Below, in pieces: positions 1 through 64,000 of a DNA stretch of 64,000 bases; position 1 is the stretch's first letter; the number at the start of each line of letters is the position of its first letter. Source of the stretch: Ectocarpus siliculosus (Eukaryota; Sar; Phaeophyceae; Ectocarpales; Ectocarpaceae). Below the pieces are notes generated by a model. That model had not been told where the DNA came from. It did no database searches and saw nothing but the letters and a program-made list of their open reading frames with translations. Position numbers and translations under genes: made by a program. The stretch lies in assembly GCA_000310025.1 (NCBI GenBank), contig FN648136.1, forward strand, positions 253,513 through 317,512. Reading direction: 5' to 3'.

Positions 1-3000
1 GCGTGCTTTCGTGTCGATGAACCTCTTGCTAATTTTCGAAAAGCTTCGTTCAAAGTACGGCGCAGGTTGTTTCTTTGCTCAGACATCACTCGAAACGACA
101 CCAACCGCCGTTTTGACGCAACTCGCTCTCTTATCTCGCGCAGGTCTTGAACGCGTCTGGTTTGCCGGCAACGTTTCCCCGGCAATTCACGTACTTCACC
201 GTGGACATTCGAGACAAGTGAGTCACCTCGAGCGTTGGAAAGGTCAATACAATATGTGGATGATTCGACCGCCGCACGGCGTACCCATCCTCGGAAACAA
301 GTCTTGACTTAAGATGCTAGTGCTAAGTTTGGGCGTACATATCTGCCACGCTGCTGTCTGCACGCACACACACGCACGGGCAACAGCTCTTCGTCTTTGT
401 TTGCCCCTCGGTGTCAGAGCATTCGGGAATATGCGCTGCTTCAGCAGAATCCTTTCGCACCACCTAAACTCAAACTTGCTCTTGCCCCGATGCCCCGATA
501 CACGGCCGCGCTCAACCCAGGGAGAGCTCCAACATCCTGACCGCCATCGGCGCTGTCAACATCTTCGTCGAGGCCGGGATAGAAAAGGGAGGCGTTCTTG
601 TCCACTGTGCCGGCGGACGGTCCCGCTCGGCGGCGTTTGTCGTGGCCTTCATAATGTCAACGCAAGGCTGTTCCTATGACGCCGCCTACGCGCAGGTACG
701 ACGGGCCCGGCCAGTCGCCTCCGTGAACCGCGGCTTCGAGCAGCAGCTAAGGGCGTATGGTGCCGCTCAGTGCGACGTTTTCGCCGCGCACCAGATGATG
801 CTCCGTATCCGAGCGGCGGCACTCTTGGATCGAAGAAATTTGCTCCTCCTGCGAAGGAGCAGTGGCGTCACGCCGTCGGAAACGGTCGGAGATGGCGCGG
901 CGGGAGGGGAGGCAGCAGAGCACACCAGGACATCGCCAACAAGGCCGTCTGCTCAACACCAGCTAGGTGCAACAGGGGCGGCGGCTGCGGCGGGGTCAGT
1001 GTCCACAGCGGGAATACCCCCTACCCCGAGGTCTCCGCGCGGAAGAGGGCGGTCGCCCGCCGGGATAAACCCGGCGATATCGTACCGGCAGCAAAGGAGA
1101 TGGAGCGGGAGCGGGAACGGGAGTGCGGCTGTCACCACTGCGGTGGTAGCGGCAGCTGCAGCAGCGGCAGCGGCAGCAGCGGTGGCGGCGGCGGGGGCGG
1201 CGGGGGCGGGGAAGTCCCGCGAGGAGCAAACGCAGTTTTTACCGAAAGATGTATGTATGTTCTGGAGTATCATTGCTACCGGGAGAGGGGAGGGGGGGGG
1301 TGGGGGAGATAGAATATATGTTGCTGTGTCTGCTTGCATGCTCGCAGTCTTGCCCGATTTTGCCGTGCTATCTGATTGTCGCAAGGCTGCGCTTACGTTT
1401 TTGGACGGGGGCAAAGATGGCGTCGTCCCTGAGATTCACAATGAGACCCGCGCAACTACATAAACTGGAGATGGCTCGGCAGATGAAGGCGATATTTAGG
1501 CGCAGGAGTGGTGCTCTGTTGGAATTGAGATGCGTGGTGAATGGTGGCAGACTGAGTCATCAACGGACCAGGACCTTCCCGAACCCCTCGACCCCCTACG
1601 TCCCTCCCCCGGCTTTCCACCGACTTGGACCTTTGCTGCCTTTGCTGTTTGACGTTCGGACCAACGATGGCTCAGCCACGACCCATAAGATTCCGTTTAT
1701 GCAGGCCGGGGTCTGCGTCTGTTCAAGTCATCCCTCCACTCAAGAGTTTGGAACGTGTCTACGCATGTCGCGGCTGTGGTGCCTTTCTTCTCACCGGCGG
1801 ACATATCATCAAGGTACCTGCCCCAGGTCCTCAATGTTTTCCCTCTTGCTTGCTGCTGGCGCGGACTTCAAACGTGTGTGGGAAGGTGTTTGTGGGGGTA
1901 CGCTGCTCGTAGGTGCGGGCGAATGATCGTGTGTGTAGCGAATCGCTAGTAGGCGGCGCATACGCCCAAATCCCTTGCCGACCAACAACGCATTGTCGTC
2001 TCGTATTCTCCGACCTTGCACAAAATGCAGCCCAACATCGACCTACCAAGTCTGCAGGCTGTCCTCGCTCGCAGCTCCCCGCGGAACCAGGCGGATCAAT
2101 ACGCACCGGATGCCGGTGCTTCGCCCCTCTCCCTGGTTACCTCGAACTCCACGGCAACGATCACGAGCTCCATGGCGGCATCACAACAACAATCTCCACC
2201 CTGCAGCGGGAGTGCCAGCGCCAGCGGTGGTAGCAGCAGCTGCAGCGGTGGCACGGACACAGTAGTCACCCGCGGGCGCGGAGATAGACGGTCACCTAGC
2301 CCGCTGTCGGAGCGGAGGGGCCAGTCTAGGGTGGCGGTAGCGACGACGACGACGGTTTCGGTTTCTTCTGGGTCTCCGACAACGAGGCGATCGGCCGCCG
2401 CTCGACGACCCCCACCACCGTTGCGAGTCATAACCACAGAGCTTGGCCCAGACCGCCCCCCCATGCACAATCGGTGGGTGCCGGAAGGGTTTCTTGCCGG
2501 GGTTCAGGCAACAACGGCGGGAGCAGGTCCTCCGTTGCAGGGGGCAACGGTGACGGTCGGAGGGGGCGGGGCAGGGGGCGGAGGAGGGACTGCAGTAGCC
2601 GAGGCAATACGGTTGCAGTCCCCGTTAGGGTTCACGCCTTCCCCAAGTAGGTTAAGACCTTGGGCGGCGGGGCGGTGCAGCAGTGGGACGGCGACCGGTG
2701 GCGGTGGCGGTGGAGGGTGTGCAGGAGACAGCCGGTGCGGAGATGGCCAGCGAAACAGCCCGGTGTTTGCCTTCGAAAGTGAGGACGATTCGAGCAACGT
2801 CGATCCGTTTGAGCGGGAGGGGGAGGGAACGCTTGCGGAGGCATATCCCGTGGCCGTGGATGCGATTTACACCGCTAGCGGCAGCGGTGGGAGCGGTGTC
2901 ATTAGCGTAGGCAGCGGCGGAGGCGGCATGTCGTACCCAGGTTGGGAAGGTGCGGTGGGAAGCGGGGGAGGGAGCGCGGGGTGCCGGAGATTACGCCGGG

Positions 3001-4937
3001 CGACTGGGACACCTACGAACGCGACCCTCCAGTCCGGAGAGTTTAATTTGATGCTGTCGTCAAAAGTGCCCCTGTCCGCGGGCTCTGGGATGGAGAGCGT
3101 GAGCCCCTTGATGACCCCACGATCCCCCAGGACGCCGGCTTCGTGCGGGAGCACCAGTCCATGCGCGTCGGACGGCTCATTTTCGAATAGCCTAAGCAGG
3201 CCGCAGTCGGCTGAGAAGCGGCAGTTCTTGATGCGGGTGAGGCTCGTTCTTGTTTTCTAGATCTCGGCTAAGGCTCGTAGACGAGCTATCAGTCTCAAAG
3301 GTTTGGGTGCTGGCGTGAGCAATCTTGCGGGAACGGTCGGGATTACATCAAGGTAACGGCACGCTAACTCGGTTCGCACGCATGCACACAGATGAACCAG
3401 ATGGAATCTCGAACACTGGCGACGACCGGGCCGCCTAGCTTCCCGGACACGGAGAGCCAAAATGAACGGCCCACCTCGCGGCCAGGGGGTCGATGGCTAC
3501 ACGTCGATCTGTTGGACTGGATGGGGGATATCATGGTAGCACCGACCGGCCACATCTGCTGTCCGAGCTCGGGATGCGGGTGAGACGCGCGTAAATGCCG
3601 TGAGCGGGCCTGGACAGGGAAAGTACTGCTGTGTACGATTCAGTTTGTCTCGGATGTCTGTTGATAATCATATTCATCAGCGGCAGGCCGTGTGGAGAGA
3701 GAGAGAGCACTATCTTTTCCGCGTGCAAAGCATCGCGTTCCCCAAGCTTATGCTTGATCTTGAGGGGCACACAACAATCTTGTTGTCCGCACTCTCACTT
3801 CGCGTGTCAACCGGTCTACTCGTATCGCGGCAAAGAGTAGGCCGATTGGCGATAGCCGCCCTTTTTCATGTTGTCGTTGCGTATGTGCGTCGCTTGCTTG
3901 CAACCGAGGAAGAGTTGAGCTCGGAAACTGGTCGTGGGAGAAGCCGGAGGCGGCAGGTCTGAAGTCCCCGACGGGTCCGCCATTGATCCGCCTGGACAAG
4001 GCGCTCATCAAAAACACGAGGTGCCGCGTTGGTGTATGCAAGTTGTATGTCAACGTCCAAGTGTTCTCGCTGGTGTGAGGTGTTGGGTGGTTTGTTCAAC
4101 ATCGAGTGTGCTCGGCGAGGTGCGGGGTTTACTATTGCGTCATGATAGACATGATCTTGCTGTTGCAGCGACGGGGACACGCAGTGGAATGACGTTTTCG
4201 TTTCGCATGAAGAGAAGAAGTTTTTACGCCGCGAGAGAAGAAGCGTCCAGGCCTCGCGTTGTAAAGCCGATTAACGGTATAGTTAATGCAGGTCAGTCCC
4301 GTGTTTCGCCGAGCCCCCGTACAGAGTAGCTGGTTTCCTGTCTTTGTTTTACTCCTCTTGCTTGTTTCCTCATCCTTGCAGAAAGCTCTGCTCCTCTCCA
4401 TCTTGATTCATGTCAGCAAGCAGGAGTTCAAGTTTTGTTTGCGGTGTGAGTAGGGACGCGTATCACTACGGTACGATCATCTGTGCCCTCCCACGCGGGT
4501 CTTGCTTTCAAAAACTCCAATCAGATACGCCGAATCTCACCGACAGAGTTGAAGCAAGTTTCACCTTCAATTTGGAGAAAGTGACGCCTTACGGAGAACG
4601 CTCCGCGACCAGTACTTGTAATTACTCTATCAAGATCGTCGGCGGACAAAAAGAACGCCGCCTATCACAACCCCACCCATCCCTTCCCACCCTGCTTTCC
4701 CCCCGTACCCTCAGCTACATGCGGTCGCAGCTAGACAGCAGTCGGTCGAGTCTGAGCCGAGACAACACGCCCAAAAGCTCCCCGTGTGCCAGTGCAAACA
4801 GTCCAAGCAAGGGCTCTCCTGGAAGTGCTTTGCCGGAGTCGGATTTGAGGCGGTCATCTGGTATTTTAGAGAGTAGGTTGGCTGGGCTGTCGGCATCGCC
4901 GCAGCTCACACAGCCCGCGCGAGGTTCTCCCGGGTAG
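1..4937 (+). CDS. DUSP12-like dual-specificity phosphatase (5' partial)
   Basis: Dual-specificity protein phosphatase, predicted to dephosphorylate Ser/Thr and Tyr. The 5' end lies outside the window. Exons that splice in phase: 144-217, 521-1250, 1676-1813, 2031-3236, 3392-3579 and 3913-about 4033. A final exon ending at 4937 is likely but its junction is unresolved. Exon 144-217 reads VLNASGLPATFPRQF and VDIRD, the start of the catalytic fold. The active site HCAGGRSRS (603-629) is the intact C-x5-R signature. Exon 1676-1813 has RLCRPGSASVQVIPPL followed by YACRGCG, the first Cys-rich segment of the DUSP12 C-terminus. Exons 3392-3579 and 3913 onward give LLDWMGDIMVAPTG, CCPSSGCG and LGNWSWE, the second segment. 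Between them, 2031-3236 encodes about 402 residues rich in Gly, Ser, Thr and Pro. A poly-Ala run lies near 1130-1210. Family assignment is firm; the 3' end is not. Confidence 0.8.
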
Positions 4938-5820
4938 AGCATAACCAGTATCTCGCTTCCCCGGTGTTTGTTCCATGTATGCTGTCTCATGCCGAAGTTT
5001 ACTTTTGCCAGATTTTGTGTCTTCTTTGTTTCAAAGTGTTTTAAGTGTTTAAGTGCTGTTTTCGCCTAGAGGAGGCAACTCAGCTGTGAATTGAGCCGGG
5101 AATGCTGGACCGCTGGTGTTTCGGAGGGGGTTGGATGGGTGGGGGGCATTGTAAGGGTGCAACTGGTGGCAATATGTCACCTTGCAATTTGTGAATTTGT
5201 CGGTGTATTTTCAGCCCAACAGGGTCGTGTGTTATTTATATGAATATTTACAAGACGCATATTTAACCCTTGAATTGAAAACGTGTTGATTGCCTGCCGG
5301 ACTTGCAAAAGAATTATGAAGAGGTATGTGGGGTGGCATGGGTGTTGGTTTGCCCCGCTTTAGTCATCCAATTGTGGGACAAGAGCATCATGCCAACCAA
5401 AATGTTTTTTCAATTTGAGGAGGATCCAAGTGCGGCGTCTTGAGCACAGGGTTTCTTTTGTCACTACCCGCGCACCTCCGACTAAATGGTTCTATGAGAG
5501 GCGAATTTCCCAAGGGCGAACTTATTCCCTCCGCACATAAAACTATATTAACGTACACACGAAACCATGAAATAAATGTCTGTAACACCAACCACAAGAG
5601 ATGCTTCGCCACACTCATACATAGCTCGACTCTGTTGGACGTTCCTTGTGCAGGTTCATTGGCATACACTTGAATGTAGGGCATGAGCCCCATGCGTGTT
5701 TCGGTGTAGCGACAGCATCAATCGGTCTATCCGTAACGTATTTTAGTCCAAGATCGCTTCTTCCTGAGTGCGAGGAGGATGGCTCGACCCGATCTGATCA
5801 TTCTCTCTCTCTCTCTCTCT

Positions 5821-5912
<92 letters not shown>

Positions 5913-6515
5913 CACACTCGTCGGTTTTCTAAAGACCTCCTTTCTACAGAGTGTCGGGCTCGAGTCCTTCGACTCTCCCAACTACCTTTCTTGGCTATGT
6001 AAGCACCACTTCAAAACATCCTTGGCTCTGCAAAACAAGTGCTTTGTGAGCCTCTGCAAAGTGTCAACGGACAGTCGCCACTTACAATATTCCACAAGGT
6101 GACGAACCAAGTTCAAACATGGACACTTGAGCCGCGCCATGTGCCCACAGGCATAGGTTTGCTGGCTGCCGCCGGGTACCCAGTGCTCCCGTCACTGCTG
6201 CTCCAGATAGGCGAACGTATTTACGTTGCTCTTTATTACCCCCTGTATCTGTATTTACTGTACGGTACGGTTCCCGGCGCCGCACCCCGGGTTTATCTCC
6301 AGTTCACACACAGGCAACGACCACACTTACCGGGAGGCAGATACCGTAGATGGCGATGCTGTTGGAAGCACGACGACAAAGAGGCGAATAGCACACGTCT
6401 GGGCAAAGGTCGAGCCACCGCCATCAACCATACACCAGATCCAATCAAGGTACCCTGCTCTATGAACACGTGCCGACGTGAGCGAACTAGACACGATGAT
6501 GTCGAATCGATATCT
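4938..6515. other. intergenic, convergent 3' ends
   Basis: No coding region recognised. It lies between the end of the DUSP gene (+) and the end of the LPA1-like gene (-), so it should hold both 3' untranslated regions. It contains the long CT microsatellite at 5802-5909. The Ser/Leu and Glu/Arg ORFs over that repeat are artefacts. Confidence 0.6.
5802..5909. repeat. (CT)n microsatellite
   Basis: About 108 bases of almost pure CT dinucleotide, with one GTGT interruption near 5821. It lies between two convergent genes. Confidence 0.97.
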
Positions 6516-9500
6516 TTACTTCTTGCCTTTTTTCTTGTCCGGAGGCGGGTCGACATCGTCTCTAATAATGTTCCACATGGGGATGCCCACCCCCCGCCTC
6601 AGCACCTTCCCCTTCTTGCTCACTAGCAACACAATCCCGTCCTTCCCCGAGGACTTTGCCACGACGCCTTGTCTCTCTGCAGCCTCGAACTCCTCTTCCA
6701 TGAGTGCGCGCCATCCATCTTCCTGTATGCGCGCGCCACCAGGAGCGGAAGGGCACGCATCAGGCAGGAATCGTGTTCATCACGAGGCGAGGGTCTCCGC
6801 AACGAGCTGCGCGAACTCAAACTCGTCCTTCCAAGCATCATTCCATACTAGGCATTCCAGTCCGCGCAGGGGTGTCGATATCGAATGAAGAATTCAGGCT
6901 GAGCCTGACACCTTGAGAGAATCGAGATCGAATATCGAGCCTCTACCTCAAAAGAAACGGTGAACCGGCGGGTTGTCGGAGTAGACAACAGTTGCTCACT
7001 GTGTACACGACAGCGGAGAATTATTGCCTGCTAGCGAGACTGCTTCGGCAGCAGAGCAACGCGCACAGGGGGGATGGAGATGGCATGGATACGTGCCATT
7101 CGTCCCAAGCAACACTGCGGCCAGTTACCGTTGTCCTCTGCTCAGATCCGCAGCAAACTGATTCCTTACGAACACTCACGTCGACAGGAGCGGCCACGTA
7201 ACCTTGCTCCTCGTAAGACAGCGAAGTTCCGAAACCCTTCGCCAGCCCTTTGGCCCCCTTGCCATCGTTAGCCACTTCCATCTCGACCGGCACCACCAAC
7301 AGGTTGAGGCTGGGGAAAATCTGGTTCTTGGCGAGCATCGCGGCCACGATGCTGTCGCGGACGAACTCTTTTCCTCCGGCTAACACGCAAAATGCTTGCT
7401 TCGCCTCGTCCATGAGAACGCCCACTGGCGCCTGTTGGTGTATGCATGTGTTTCAGTTACATCGAGGAGTAGATATGGAACAACTGAGAGTGGCCGTGAC
7501 AGCGCTATTGAAGACGGGGAGGTTGACTAAAAAAATTGAAAAAAATTGTCTGGACATTAAAAGGGGTATCCCCGATTGATCACGCCTCGAAAGCAAGAAG
7601 ACAAGACAAATAGTCTGGTCTGTGATCCTCTGTCCCACATCGCCTCGCTCGCGCGTTCGACCGGGTTTTAGATGCACACCCCATCCACAATGAAGTACTG
7701 GCCCGTATCGCAGGCTCATACATCAATCAGGCCTTGGAGGGCCTGGCAGCCTGGCTCGTCCAATACCTACCCCCAGATATGTATACACGAACTCGCGCAC
7801 CTCTTTCGCTCCTTCGAGTTCAGCACCACTTCCGCTACCAGGAACCTTGACACTAAGGGCCCGCAGCTGTTTCACTCTGTCGGCGTTGACGTCACCGGTT
7901 ATCTTGGTGGCCTTTAGTTTCTGCCGCTTCTCCCGGTTGGCCGCTTCCACTTGCTCCAGGTCTTCCTGCTGTGACCTGCCTCCAAAAGCGGCCGTCCCGC
8001 AAATGCCCATGCATGCATGCGTAAGCAAGCTTATCAGTGCTTCCAGGCCAACTGACTGATGACCGGCTAGAGTAGAACATCGACTCACAAACCCGAACAT
8101 TGACGCCCAATACACAATTGTACCAAATATGTGAAGGGCTTCATTTCTGGGTGAGGTTACGCCGGGCTATCCCATGGTGTGGCAGCAGCTCTGCCCCCTT
8201 CCAACGGCGAACTCTACCAAACCTACTGGAGGAACCGCGAATGAGTTGGTCTCCACTCTCTCTTCTTCTGCACGGTAAATATTTGCTATTCCGGAGTTGT
8301 CATTTTCTGGGTTCTTGGTGGTTGCTGAGTACTCCAGTAGGCTATCATACATGCCAACCACCCGTCATGAAACCGACCCAAACGTAGAATAGACGCGAAC
8401 TATACGTACGGCATCTACCGTTACGACGGCCTTCAACAGTAGATGCCAAGTATCAAGCGACGAGGAAAGACACGTCTCACGTTTCGAAATTGTAGCAGAA
8501 TGCAGCCGCGGCCATAACCCCGAAGTCCACCAGGAGGTTGATCAGCACCTTCTGAAGCTCCAGGGCTCCCGGCTGGTCAGAGAGTGCTGGAAGGAAGGAA
8601 AATATTGAAATACAGTTAGCTCGAATCCCCAGTCACGACCAAAAGAGCAGGATGGTGGGTAGATGAAATCTGAGTGGTCAGAGGCTACCGCTAAGGCACG
8701 GCCGGACTACGAAACAAGTGTACAGGACAATATAACCCGTACGAAGTTTTGTTCGGCTAATACACTGCGGCTTTCAACAGTAAGCAAGAACTTTGCAGCG
8801 GCACCACCAACAACGGCACATAGCCGAAATAAATGACACAAAGTTTTGACAGCTTTGGCCTTCCACCATTGACTCTGCTCGAGCAGCGCAATAAATATCC
8901 AGGGATGGTCAATAGCAGTTCACCCCCTTGTCTAGCCTATCACACATCGACTCACTTGCGGCCAGTTGGGTGAGCGAAGTTATTCCGCCGATCAGAGCAG
9001 ACAGACCAAAAGCCCCGTAGATGAAGATCCGAAACTGTTTTATAGGGATGAGAAAACATCAGCGCGTAGCCGCCGTGCGAGCGAATCAGGATACACCGCA
9101 CAAATTAATGGCTGTAAACTAATTTACACAAGAAGGTAGGGACTAGCTTAGACGCGCAGCACCTCCAAAAACACGATAGCAAGAGGATCACCACATCAGT
9201 AAGCGCCAAGGTGAGGGGATAATTTTTTGTGCGAACGCTGATGGCCTGATGGTGTAAGTGGGCAGAGCAGTGCGGAACAGAAGGGGCAGCGGAGAACAGA
9301 GCGAATCATGCAAACAAGTCCACAGGGAAATGCGGAACGGAGAGGTACAGAAGCAACATGTTTTCACATGCTTAGCCTGTTGCGTGAGACCAAGTGGCAC
9401 CAGTGAGCGCGAACCTCTTGGTGTCATCTAAAAGCTTTAGATACCGCGTGGGCAGCGGAACAGTATTACACCCCAACCACGCTGATCCAACCTCGCTGTA

Positions 9501-11204
9501 GCGTGGTTGGGTTTTGCAGCCTTGCCAAGACGGGGAGATCGGCGGATGAGTGGCCTTCGCCGCAGACCCGGGAAAGATTGGCCGAGACGACGGCAGCACT
9601 TACCGTGCGGAACGGAGTTTTTGTCTCCGCCTTGAGCTTGTCAATGTTAAACGCCGGCGTCGCTATCTCATCGTCTTCTTCATCTGCCTGCGAATCCGCA
9701 TCTCCCTTCTCCGTGGCAGCAGCGACGCTGTTTTGGAGAGAGAGGGAATGGATCATGGGAGGATTCACTGAGCTTTCTGAATACCATACGCAGGGCTGTG
9801 ATCGGTGTTGCCCACATCGCTTGAAAGTACCCACAGCAAAACTGGGTTTAGGGGACTCGTGTCAAACTGTGATACGGTCGAATTGCTGAGACATTGATTG
9901 ATGTGGCTCTGTTGCGCGTTTAGGCTGGGAAGGCTCGATACATGAAGATAGGGGGTGGAATCCTGGAGGAATAGCTGTGTCGCCAAACCGCCTTCTTCAG
10001 GGTCTAGCCCCCCAGAGGCCCACGACGTACGAAGTAGAGTACATCAGCATTACCATCAAACAAACCGCGCCAAGCCTCGGTTGAGAGGAGGGGGGGGGGG
10101 GGGGGGGTACTCATGGTCGTCCATGCCGTAGTCGTTAGACCATTGACCTCGCATCCCTACAAAGCCGGGACGGAGGACGCCGGGTTCTCACCGGACCAGG
10201 CTCGGGTCCATTTTCGCGGTAACAACACGGTGGGGATTTTCACTGACATATAAATCCAGCAAGAAAGCATCCTCCATATAACCTCAGTCTCCGAACGACC
10301 TGCGAATAGCTAGAAAAACCCAGATCTTTTCCTACCGTGCATTCGTGTGCCCTGTGCCCCCTCCCCTCAACATAGTGTTCGGTGGTTTTCCGTGAGAGAT
10401 TGTACTTGTATGTAGATAGACGTGGAAGGCTGGGTCCCCACAGCAGTACCCATCCGATACGAACCCCGAGCTTTTCTTGAAAGAATCGGTTTCAGGACAG
10501 GTGGATACTATCCTTGATATCCATAACAATACACTTGCAGGGAGGACACAGCAGTCACAAAGATGTGCACCTGCCTCTGGCGCGGCCGAGCAACAACGCA
10601 GCAACACCATGTCCACCATCATCGCGTATTTTGTCCAAAAAAAAATGAACAACTTGGAACAACACGTGTTCTTGTTCCCATAGACCTCTTGTCTCACATG
10701 ATTGCAACCCTCCTGTGCATGGCCAGTCCGTATATTATTCGATATGGCAGCAGTGTGTGATACGCAGAACGGTTGTAGTATTTGTGTGTTGCGCGCAACA
10801 AACTATTGCATTTGATCTTCATGTGTAATGTGTTGGCTGTGGACACTTGAAGTCGATGTATGTTTGGAACCAGGTCGGATTTCCAGACGCGAACAATTCC
10901 TCCTCTTCCCTGTCGCGCACCTCTCGATGAGCTCGAGACGGCCAGCCTTTCCCTTTCCTTTCTTCTTCCCTTTGGCCATCATCAGGGGACCGGCAGAGCT
11001 TGCACGACAATGAAGGTTGGCTTGGCGGCTGGAAACATTACATGAAGGGCTTATTCCGCCGCTCCCATGTGAGAAAGATGCTCGGTTGATAGAAGAAGCA
11101 GTCCTGGGTGTGCGTGCAATACCCCCGAAGAACGCGGGTACGAAGGAAACGCACCCATGAGTTACCAGCCCCAGTATCAGCGCGGTCGATCTCCAACGAA
11201 CCAT
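6516..11204 (-). CDS. LPA1: plastid LPA1/REP27-like DUF3493 protein
   Basis: Predicted thylakoid factor for photosystem II assembly or repair, as known for LPA1 (Arabidopsis) and REP27 (Chlamydomonas). Exons on the minus strand, in order: 11204-10921, 9727-9604, 9034-8956, 8586-8481, 7975-7771, 7431-7180, then a C-terminal part ending at 6516. All phases close as far as 7180. The N-terminus has a hydrophobic signal followed by CVSFVPAFF, a heterokont plastid presequence. A Lys/Gly-rich stretch follows. The DUF3493-like core is TKTPFRT/FRIFIYGAFGLSALIGG with two hydrophobic segments (exons at 9034 and 8586). The C-terminal half includes YEEQGYVAAPVDV, WNDAWKDEFEFAQL and KGKVLRRGVGIPMWN, and ends in a Lys-rich tail. 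The joins between 7180, the exon near 6780-6862 and the last exon (about 6516-6746) do not keep frame; see findings. The family call rests on remembered similarity. Confidence 0.65.
10084..10206 (-). repeat. repeat R1, 3' fragment, in LPA1-like intron 1
   Basis: The reverse complement matches the 3' end of the dispersed repeat at 52457-52990 and 57067-57671: GAGCCTGGTCCGGTGAGAAC, a shared core including GGGATGCGAGGTCAATGG, then GAGTAC and a C homopolymer (seen here as a G run near 10089). Only the last roughly 120 bases are present. Confidence 0.8.
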
Positions 11205-59337: not shown

Positions 59338-62324
59338 TGCAAGTAGAGTAGAGAGGATAAAACAAGCCTCAGCTGATTAGAAATGGAACAAAAGCCTCAC
59401 TGAATCGGGTCCTCGTTGTCTCGCTTTCAAGCAAAGAAGCACCCACCCGCCTCGGTGAACCCCGGGGGATAGAAACGCCTTACAGGCCAAGCAACACAAC
59501 CAGGAGCTCTATTGGCCCGGCCGCACCAGCAACCACCAGTGGCAGAGGAAAGGGAGACGATGAGGTTTATCGATACTGTGGTTGATTGGCTCGCCTCAAT
59601 TTCAGTTTGCAGTAGATTAGAGGAGGCCGGATATGCTTGTCGTAGACAGCGCGTCTTCCTTCTCATTAGCCTTGGCTATGGCAAGAGACTCCCTATTTGT
59701 CGGCCTCGTTTGGCAAAGCCAGGGAATGGATCGGACGCCGGTGTAAGTCTTGAAAACAATGGTTCTTTTGTGAGAGTAGCGTCTCCGTCCACGTATGTAT
59801 GTATGTATCGTCTCTCGCCAGCCTCCTCCATGAGAAGAAAATGAGGCAGCTAGACTAGGGTGGGGGTGGTGGGTGTGACGTTGCAGTCAGATAACACGGA
59901 TGGATGGCTCCGACGCACCGTTTGGTCATGATCACAGCCAACGCACAACAATAAGAAAGGCTCGCACACGGATTAAAATGTCTCGGATAACACAGATCCC
60001 ATAGCGATCAGGGCAGGCTTCAAAGAAGTCACAGATGTTGTGCGTAGAGCCAGCCTTCAAGGTTTTGTGGCGACGCGACCATCATCGCGGGGGCACGCTG
60101 TGGTAATGTGGGGTGAGGTCTGTCTTTAGGAGATTTTGGGCGCGGGGGCTTGGCAAACGGGGGCGGGGGGGGGTGTGCCCATCGAAATTAAATCGTAAAT
60201 CGTACCAGTAGTCCCAACTATCGGTTGCCTGTAAGAAGTCACCCTTGCGTGCGTTGACTTTATTTCCGCGCACACCCTTGATTGCGGATACAATTTTTCT
60301 TCTACAGGCATCACAGGCATTTTGATACCGTCGTACCAAAAGGTGGCGGATTGGAGGCAGCCCTAGCCGTAGAAGGTTTGGAAGCGCGAAGTGACTCAAT
60401 GCTGCTGTGTTTTTTCTGTTCGCTCACGATATTCCAGGCCATTGCCTCTTGGCGATGCGCGTGAGCGCATCCTCAAAGAGACTGTTACGGTCTAGTAGGT
60501 CTCACAGAACGGTAAGAAACATGTGAATGGGTGAATGAATGAAGGATCACGATCAGTCCGGAGGCTTCAGCCTACACCCCCTTGCCCCTCCCTTCGATGT
60601 GTAGACCAGAGAGCGGATACTTCCGATGTAGTTGCCTCCGCCGCTTGTTTTTGACCAACGAAACAGCTCACAGCTGCCCAGTCAACCTGAATTCTTCAGT
60701 ATTAAAGACCAGAGAGCGAAATGCCCTCAGTCGACCCCCTAGGGCAGTCTCCCCCGGGTGTGCGGGGAGATATCAGACCTCTAAGCCCCCATAGAGAGGG
60801 GTAGAAGACAGGAGATGAGTATACTTACTATCTTCAGAGGTCAACCGAGGCCCCTGACGTGGAAACAAGGGGGTACCATCATCATGTCCAATTTCCATGT
60901 CCGATTCCAGGCATGAGGATAGTCTTACATTAGAAGATACCAAGTGCTCAAGGTAGAGAAAAAGTTTGACGATTGTGTTCCGGGAAACGAGCTGCTATTG
61001 TTCTGTGCTGTATGTACTGTACAGCCAATCACTTAATTGAGACGTTAGAATGTGAGACACAAAAATACGACCATCCAAGCGTGTGCTCGTGTGGACCTGT
61101 CGTGTCGGCATATCTTCGTGCTGTTTGTGGCCCCCGCGCTTTTCGACGGAGGCTGAAGCGCCCACCCACGGTAGTATGGAATACAGTGTGGGGAATACCG
61201 ATGTTAATGCATGAAACCTCGACTAGAATACCTCGTGCTCCTTCAAGCACAATTAAAAACTGATATACAGTGAACACATGTGCGCGCTCTCTCTCGAGGG
61301 GCCTCACACTTGGACCCCCAACAGTACCCCCCCACGCACAAACTCTCCAGATCGTATCTTGTATCCAAGTACACCCTAAACAGCCGCCCTGCTTAATATG
61401 CATATGTAGGATTACGACCTTGTTGGTAGTCTCCTTCGTTTTTTCTCCATGACAGCGTTTTTTCTCGCACTTTCTTCTGCATGGCACGCAGAGGGCCCGT
61501 CGGTATATTACCCGTTACGTGTGGGGCTCGCGAGACACCGATGGTGCGCGTTCGGGCCGCCTGAAGTCGCTGGGACTGGCTCTTTTCTCAGGGGTTCGGA
61601 ATCCGAACCATGAAAGTCTCCTCGAACGGGATGAAAACCGAAAACGGAACTTTTGATTTTTGCCACGCGCCCACGCGCCTACACAGACAGCTGCTGTGAC
61701 AGACAGCTGCTGTGTTGTTGTGTGCACACCCACCACACCAACTGGGGCGTGCGTACCCGCAGCGTGGACCAAGACTCCTGATGTTGCTCATGGCAAAACA
61801 CGACGCGACACAGAAGTCCTCTCGCACAACTCTGGCAGCGGTCATTTACATTTCAATTCCAAAAGATCGAGAAGTTCAAACATAGAAGTTGTGGTACTGA
61901 GCAGTCTACGTCTATGACTGTTCTTGGGCACGTTGAGCGTCTCTTTGATCCGTTGTTGGTGTTTGCGAGAAAAAGTCCCACAGACCATGGGAAACACGAT
62001 CACACAAGAGGAGTAAGTTCTGAAGCTTTAGCTTCAGTCTCATATTTCAATATCCGTGGGTGGGTGGAACTTTTATTCGCATACCCCACCCCTTGCCCGA
62101 CCCGGTCTCAAATGCTGATCTCGAGCTACAGTGCAAATATCGTGGCGCCCCAAGTACGGTTCGGTAGGGAATCGCAAACCATGACCCCTCCCCGAGTTTC
62201 AGCAGCTTCCACTTCCTGTGGCCGACACGACTCGGCCTTGAATGTTCTTTGTTTGTTTCGCCATGGAAACGGCCGGTTGAACAGCGAAAGAGGGTCCTGC
62301 GTGCTGCGCGCCACAATTGTTTTT
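59338..62324. other. gene-poor region, repeat remnants
   Basis: No gene could be assembled. 59540-59740 (+) has a short open stretch with RVFLLISLGYGKRLPIC, vaguely like a damaged helicase P-loop. 61263-61340 resembles 56970-57050 (ACATGTGCG, CTCT and CCCC-rich blocks), a further weak dispersed repeat. Confidence 0.4.
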
Positions 62325-63831
62325 GGGAAAATGACACAACAGGGTATACCCTGGTCGAAAAGCGACACACCTGGGTACACAGTCATTAACAGCAGTAAAT
62401 GCATTCATATGATTGGTCAGCGCCCAATTTCACCCCGGTACGTCCGAAAAGGCGCAGGGTATATACCCTGCTGTGTCTACTTTTCTCACCAACTGTACCC
62501 TGTTTTCGGAAGTGTACCCTGACCTGACGGGAAATAAGACCCATTCATCAATCATTTCCCCCGCAGGAATCTTCCCAACTCCTTTTCCTCTCCAACCATG
62601 GGGTACCAAACGGCGAATCTTCCCACCCAATAACAACCATGGCAACGCGGCAGGAATCAGTTTCCGCCCCTGCCAAACAACACCAACCATCAACTCTTCC
62701 GCTCGAAATCAACAATGGCCGGGCACTACCCCAGCACAGTTGTTCCGTTTGGAATCATGCACACGCGTGCAATACCCCGTGCACCACTGCTTGCTGCAGT
62801 CTATATGCGAGATGCACGGGTCACGCTATGAAAGCGAGACCGATCCAGCATGGTTGACATACATATACATATATGCATGTATGGACACAGCACTACACGG
62901 GTAACGTTGGGCGCCGCCACTCCCTCCTGCCTGTGCCGTGTGTGCGTGGGTGTGTTGTCTGTTGTGTCTCAATTGCGATGTGTTTCTTGCTTGAACTACT
63001 ACTACTGCTGTAACAGCAGCGGTCGCGCTTACCAGCCGACCAAGCCGACCAACCAATCAATGTATGTAGTAAGAAGACGTCAGGCTTCAGCGGGATGAGC
63101 CGATGAAATACACCGCGAACACAGGGAGGGTGATTGAGTTGGACGACACAGTCCTGCTGCTAGAGTTGTTAGCACTCGCTCCTCCTTCCATGATTGGTGT
63201 CAAGGGCGTGTCTGTGTGTGGTGTTGCTGCCTCTCTCCTCCGCCCGCTCAGCGCAGCGCCACACATCATGGGCACATACATGCATATATATATGCATGTC
63301 AACCATGCTGGATCGGTCTCGCTTTCATAGCGTGACCCGTGCATCTCGCATATAGACTGCAGCAAGCAGTGGTGCACGGGGTATTGCACGCGTGTGCATG
63401 ATTCCAAACGGAACAACTGTGCTGGGGTAGTGCCCGGCCATTGTTGATTTCGAGCGGAAGAGTTGATGGTTGGTGTTGTTTGGCAGGGGCGGAAACTGAT
63501 TCCTGCCGCGTTGCCATGGTTGTTATTGGGTGGGAAGATTCGCCGTTTGGTACCCCATGGTTGGAGAGGAAAAGGAGTTGGGAAGATTCCTGCGGGGGAA
63601 ATGATTGATGAATGGGTCTTATTTCCCGTCAGGTCAGGGTACACTTCCGAAAACAGGGTACAGTTGGTGAGAAAAGTAGACACAGCAGGGTATATACCCT
63701 GCGCCTTTTCGGACGTACCGGGGTGAAATTGGGCGCTGACCAATCATATGAATGCATTTACTGCTGTTAATGACTGTGTACCCAGGTGTGTCGCTTTTCG
63801 ACCAGGGTATACCCTTTTGTGTCGTTTTCCC
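62325..63831. mobile_element. Mutator-like foldback element with about 555-base terminal inverted repeats
   Basis: A 1,507-base element. The left arm (62325-about 62880) recurs in reverse complement at about 63280-63831, nearly identical: both arms translate to the same roughly 150-residue string, an artefact of the palindrome. Ends are GGGAAAATGACACAACAGGG on the left and the complement of GGGAAAACGACACAAAAGGG on the right. It is flanked by the 9-base direct repeat ATTGTTTTT at 62316-62324 and 63832-63840. The roughly 400-base centre encodes nothing recognisable, so it is non-autonomous. Long arms with a 9-base target duplication are typical of Mutator-like elements (established knowledge). 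Assignment to that superfamily is inference. Confidence 0.85.
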
Positions 63832-63840
63832 ATTGTTTTT

Positions 63841-64000
63841 TTTTGTTCTTCCTGAGTGACCATGCTGCTGTTACTGAATTGCTTCAGACAAGGTTGTAGG
63901 CTATCGTGTCTGCCGCTTTGGGGTGCACGCGTCGCGTAGTAGGCGATGCGCGTCGCTTACTTGGTCGCCCGTTGTGTCGTTATACATGAAAAGCAACAAC
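63841..64000. other. flank beyond the foldback element
   Basis: 160 bases to the window end, starting in a T tract. Nothing recognised. Confidence 0.4.

Follow-up and report, generated by a model that had tools for sequence, protein, structure and literature searches.

Introduction

The Mu system includes internally deleted partner elements. Mutator-like transposons (MULEs) are described as having long terminal repeats and target site duplications of 8-11 bp in a paper whose main text contains no occurrence of Ectocarpus or brown alga (PMC6446971). The MuTAnT family of Medicago truncatula is a foldback-shaped, non-autonomous MULE family with 9-nt duplications and GGGG tips, and has a larger autonomous-type partner of 4873 bp with five exons. 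As given in the main text (PMC4486113), MuTAnT arms measure 144 bp in the first described element and 47 bp on average in the family; the target preference is strongly A/T, and the targets are (TA)n microsatellites. Tm1, a Mutator/Foldback family of root-knot nematodes, is described with arms made of 13-15 bp tandem repeats (PMC3169594). For Ectocarpus, the main text accompanying a transposable element library gives one DNA/MuDR family (56 copies, 42 of them intact, 0.13% of the genome) and 51 DNA/Unknown families (PMC12477816). Our literature search, which covered main texts, found among the papers listed no publication describing a MULE family with long arms in brown algae.

Here we analyse a palindromic element, the window element, in a stretch of 64,000 nucleotides of the Ectocarpus siliculosus genome (the window; contig FN648136.1, positions 253,513 to 317,512), together with its relatives elsewhere in the same genome. 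Sequence content also points to an Ectocarpus host: one exon agrees at 90 of 90 residues with PDB 4b0n, the Ectocarpus siliculosus polyketide synthase, and the EsV-1-7 domain, which has proliferated in brown algae according to PMC12477816, gives at least 150 matches with 150 of 880 candidates scored.

Results

The window element is a complete non-autonomous element of 1507 bp (62325..63831) belonging to the group of copies that we call subfamily A. Its left arm, a long terminal inverted repeat (62325..62883, + strand), is 95.9% identical to bases 1-559 of C27, a transposase-bearing element described below. An internal-deletion junction follows at 62883..62884, where C27 base 559 is joined to base 8951; the left side of the junction falls at an AT-rich microsatellite. 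The loop (62884..63274, + strand) corresponds to the subterminal region on the right-hand side of C27. The right arm (63275..63831, - strand) is inverted, and its resemblance to the C27 left end continues inward as far as 63175 (657 bp). The whole element equals C27 bases 1-559 plus 8951-9895, with about 8.4 kb missing. The original prediction of near-identical inverted arms of about 555 bases agrees with the BLAST alignment, in which the arms share 99.1% identity across 559 bp with 391 nt between them; an ungapped comparison gives 549 nt that are 99% complementary, separated by 411 nt. The outermost 20 bases of the two ends, said to differ at only a few positions, mismatch at two. The predicted 9-base duplication is present and perfect: ATTGTTTTT directly abuts the element at 62316..62324 and 63832..63840, as read directly on both sides and, for the left copy, also from empty sites.

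The arms contain no tandem modules, repeat analysis revealing only short repeats of two or three copies; the arm also harbours part of the element end in inverted orientation (pair I3). The 560-bp arm contains 10 GGGTA/TACCC motifs, whereas 2000 single-base shuffles gave 1.2 on average and never more than 6. Seven of the 10 sites form a partly palindromic cluster at 62340..62519 (CAGGGTATACCCTG, GCAGGGTATATACCCTGC), and the order of these seven end-proximal sites is the same in C27. Our guess is that the cluster is a putative transposase-binding array. Outside the element, a stretch around TTCTGAAGCTTTAGCTTCAG at about 62012-62050 of the window was seen by eye to recur near position 3100 of locus L072, and may be a terminus of a different transposon.

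Allowing three mismatches or fewer, the 27-base terminus is present at 145 places in the 189-Mb genome (492 contigs), 74 forward and 71 reverse. The reversed pattern, used as a control, occurs nowhere on either strand of the same genome, so the end matches are not due to chance. A 585-base query gave at least 42 matches with 40 of 205 candidates scored. The 27 element loci first fetched comprised 22 copies aligned as subfamily A, C27, the copies on C129 and C20, which were completed later, and L016 and L029, which had one end only and were left out of the flank counts. All 22 aligned copies share the layout C27 1-559 plus 8951-9895, with a mean pairwise identity of 98.0% and a mean K2P distance of 0.0203 (range 0.0047-0.0358). 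One of the copies, L009, has an extra tandem 89-bp end at its left tip (L009:652-743), resembling MULEs with tandem terminal repeats.

A second group, subfamily B (C2b, C26, C1, C6 and C14), is older than subfamily A and has a different junction. Its loop shows about 80-84% similarity to the A loop, and some 50 junction-adjacent bases common to subfamily A and C27 are missing or replaced. The interior of C27 is absent from subfamily B too. The B junction could have arisen by an additional deletion across an A-like junction that was already there; separate deletions in A and B are the simpler reading because the ends of C27 are nearer to A than B is. Three further copies were considered as carriers of a transposase or of a captured gene. 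Those on C14 (10 kb) and C120 (8.1 kb) were rejected as transposase-bearing elements, their interiors having no blastn match to C27 apart from arm and loop pieces. The extra 1.3 kb or so in the C12 copy (2.7 kb) is repeat sequence present dozens of times, not a captured gene. The C120 copy contains an insert (L068:1618-2811) with open frames that look by eye like a tyrosine recombinase and perhaps stem from a DIRS/Ngaro or Crypton-type element.

The original prediction had looked to other copies with different 9-base flanks, and these are abundant: perfect 9-bp duplications, representing 22 different 9-mers, border 24 of the 34 elements for which both flanks were compared. The C14 copy is outside these counts, its right end not having been fetched. 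In the first flank set (22 A copies, C27 and C120), 19 of 24 duplications are perfect. In the second the figure is five of 10 (C1, C6, C79, C2b and C129), the remaining pairs having one mismatch (C26, C340), three (C12), four (C89) or no match at all (C20). Runs of A or T make up some of the perfect duplications; there, nine matching bases are easily obtained and the box boundaries are less certain. Pure T runs account for three of the 24.

The duplicated sites are strongly A/T-biased. At least eight A/T bases are present in 18 of the 19 perfect duplications of the first set, compared with 1.6% of all window 9-mers; judged by eye, four of the five perfect duplications of the second set are similarly A/T-rich. 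The left 9-mers of the five imperfect pairs in the first set, which lie outside these statistics, have 6 to 9 A/T bases. The bias has sharp limits: the A+T share is 0.95 in the 9-bp box, 0.58 and 0.68 at the immediately adjoining bases, and 0.50 and 0.55 at 11-40 bases outside the box.

When the flanks of the window copy were joined, keeping one duplication, at least 43 genomic matches were obtained with 40 of 520 candidates scored. Of these, 41 span the join, at 88-97% identity. The joined flanks match 41 uninterrupted places, and an empty site is therefore directly observed; at least 41 matches across the join also mean that the window copy was inserted into another repeat. This host repeat occupies 62160-62315 and 63841-63959 of the window and occurs at least 41 times genome-wide; three matches to it lie close together in C14 (L067). 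Among the fetched loci, spanning matches are also present for the joined flanks of L021 and L027. The site is read through cleanly in the alignments of the window copy and L027, and less cleanly, in a poly-T stretch, in that of L021. Most of the 22 copies' joined flanks had no spanning match among the fetched loci, which means little because the search covered those loci only.

The expected autonomous-type relative with the same ends is C27 (C27:4263943-4273837), an element of 9895 bp with its own 9-bp duplication, AAACAAATT. Its terminal repeats of 659 bp are 98.6% alike and 94.7-96.2% identical to the window element. The left repeat runs 100 bp past the point corresponding to the junction, matching the right one. 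An open stretch of C27 without any stop contains the Pfam MULE domain PF10551 (E=5.8e-12, 46.3 bits, cut-off 27.6). Other open stretches of that strand look by eye like the remaining parts of a MULE transposase: an N-terminal stretch that starts at the inward boundary of the left repeat, a CxC run (CxC...C in the 5694-5993 stretch) and a basic C-terminus. An AES motif may, on a by-eye reading, mark the site of the catalytic glutamate. Pfam found nothing significant in the other four open stretches, and no zinc-finger, SWIM or FAR1 domain in any of the five; one stretch weakly matches an RNaseH-like model for zinc-finger SWIM proteins (E=0.01). The gene is spread over several frames, and we assume that it contains introns.

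A genome search with the C27 transposase gave four matches, among which C27 was the only element found to combine both ends with the transposase. Part of the genome is N, so other full-length copies may have been missed. The second-closest transposase copy (C24:354921-355328) has 85% protein identity to C27, and the DNA around it follows the order of C27 775-8820 colinearly, with 87.7-89.2% identity. The N-terminal stretch of the C24 copy has one in-frame stop, and more stops lie in a weakly aligned part of its third stretch, perhaps an intron. We found no arm beside the C24 transposase, in a region that is partly N. C24 was accordingly rejected as a second complete autonomous copy, given its in-frame stop and the absence of visible ends. 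The dN/dS ratio of C27 and C24 is 0.68 over 754 codons, which gives little indication that the protein is maintained by selection; with one of the partners decayed, purifying selection on the transposase was rejected as a reading.

We also compared the arms of the 22 A copies pairwise. Arms of the same copy are on average 99.00% identical, compared with 98.25% (left-left), 98.28% (right-right) and 98.18% (left-right) between copies, and reshuffling of partners reached the within-copy value in none of 5000 trials. The effect is modest: of 46 arms, taken from the 22 copies and C27, just 13 are closest to their own sister. The arms within a copy thus appear to be homogenised, likely by gene conversion or within-copy repair. 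Because of this apparent homogenisation, arm identity overstates how recent a copy is. The predicted recent transposition holds in a relative sense only, the 22 copies having an average K2P distance of 0.020.

A second MULE family emerged among the fetched loci. Its 26 copies (L040-L065) are mostly 99.5-99.9% alike where aligned, with L036-L039 at 96-97%, and most copies have an open frame of 233 amino acids. This family looks recently active and may be the single MuDR family of the published Ectocarpus table. A link to the window family was rejected, since all 30 loci (L036-L065) lack the window family's ends in the fetched 1.5-kb flanks.

Discussion

With a probability of roughly 0.9, the window element is a non-autonomous member of the Mutator (MULE) superfamily of DNA transposons that carries an internal deletion and is mobilised in trans by a C27-type transposase. 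Its placement in the superfamily is based on a MULE domain encoded by an element that shares its ends, a 9-bp duplication, and terminal repeats of 559 and 659 bp. The element would have originated when a MULE of about 9.9 kb, with terminal inverted repeats of about 659 bp, lost bases 559 to 8950 including the transposase gene; the hairpin shape would result from a 659-bp-repeat MULE losing its middle. The retained ends would have kept what the enzyme requires, letting a C27-like transposase mobilise the copies in trans. Insertion would occur into short A/T boxes, with staggered cuts and repair producing the 9-bp duplication. We infer that the C27 transposase or a lost close relative moved the copies, and that it did so by cut-and-paste.

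It is improbable that the copies were instead moved by the near-identical L040-L065 family. That family accounts for most of the 45 MULE-domain matches in the genome, and the near-identity of its copies suggests activity, but the window family's ends are found in none of the 30 loci within the fetched flanks and no locus of the family matches the window-element arm. We consider it quite improbable that the non-autonomous form came first and that C27 is one of its copies, interrupted by an unrelated MULE. In favour of this reading, C27 is the sole element found to combine both ends with a transposase, and the interior is missing from the older subfamily B as well; if the B junction lies over an older A-like junction, the non-autonomous form would predate the split of A and C27. 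Against this, the left repeat of C27 continues 100 bp past the junction and mirrors the right arm, which fits a deletion and not an insertion. The A and B junctions differ, and the C24 relative has the same 8-kb interior order, indicating that the interior is a regular unit rather than a chance nested insert.

A true Foldback (FB-type) element, with modular arms of its own and only distantly related to MULEs, is very unlikely. The hairpin layout, the short loop and the inverted partial end copy within the arm are all in keeping with such an element, but the arms are the ordinary ends of the transposase-bearing C27 element, and the variable numbers of short tandem modules that define Foldback elements in the strict sense are absent from them. 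Of the predicted Mutator-type foldback element, the Mutator part is borne out by the MULE domain of C27, whereas the foldback part holds for the shape and not for the modular arms. Finally, a segmental inverted duplication or assembly palindrome, suggested by inverted arms of 99.1% identity, can be dismissed, as copies dispersed over many contigs share the same end bases with site-specific 9-bp duplications and an empty site exists, which rules out segmental duplication and upholds the original prediction of a palindromic non-autonomous transposon.

On the internally deleted MULE reading, a brown alga harbours a long-armed MULE with hairpin-shaped derivatives. We suggest, as a tentative and rather doubtful extension, that this is a brown-algal MULE lineage with a sharply bounded 9-bp A/T-box target, arms kept alike by within-copy exchange, and two separate deletion derivatives mobilised by one system, of which perhaps a single transposase-bearing copy is left. 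If true, this would be a natural two-component system near the loss of its engine. The A/T-box rule is easily testable. The ends, the target rule, the empty sites and the transposase-bearing partner described here might help to assign some unclassified Ectocarpus repeats; the chance of naming them, the target rule and the arm exchange are the main value of this analysis.

The window family shares long terminal repeats, 9-bp duplications and a MULE-domain transposase with Mu/MuDR of maize and other long-repeat MULEs, as described in the main texts (PMC3310237, PMC6446971), the comparison being one of traits. Relative to Mu/MuDR as described there, the C27 stretches have the Pfam MULE domain without a SWIM or FAR1 match. 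Like MuTAnT in its main-text description, the window family combines a foldback shape, 9-nt duplications, GGGG tips, a larger transposase-type partner and A/T targets; it differs in its arms of about 557 bp, its short A/T-box target and its brown-algal host. Insertion into (TA)n of the kind described for MuTAnT is not its habit, as only one of the 19 perfect duplications in the first flank set is a TA run. Hairpin-like elements, 9-bp duplications and a transposase-bearing relative are also features of Tm1 as published, but the window-element arms lack its tandem repeat array. The published Ectocarpus DNA/MuDR family comes from the same host genus and the same superfamily. Dividing the main-text figures ourselves, we obtain about 4.6 kb per copy, which fits the L040-L065 MULEs better than the 1.5-kb elements; the window family may be one of the 51 DNA/Unknown families of that library. 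As a new family of a well-known kind, the Mutator-like transposons, the window family is well supported.
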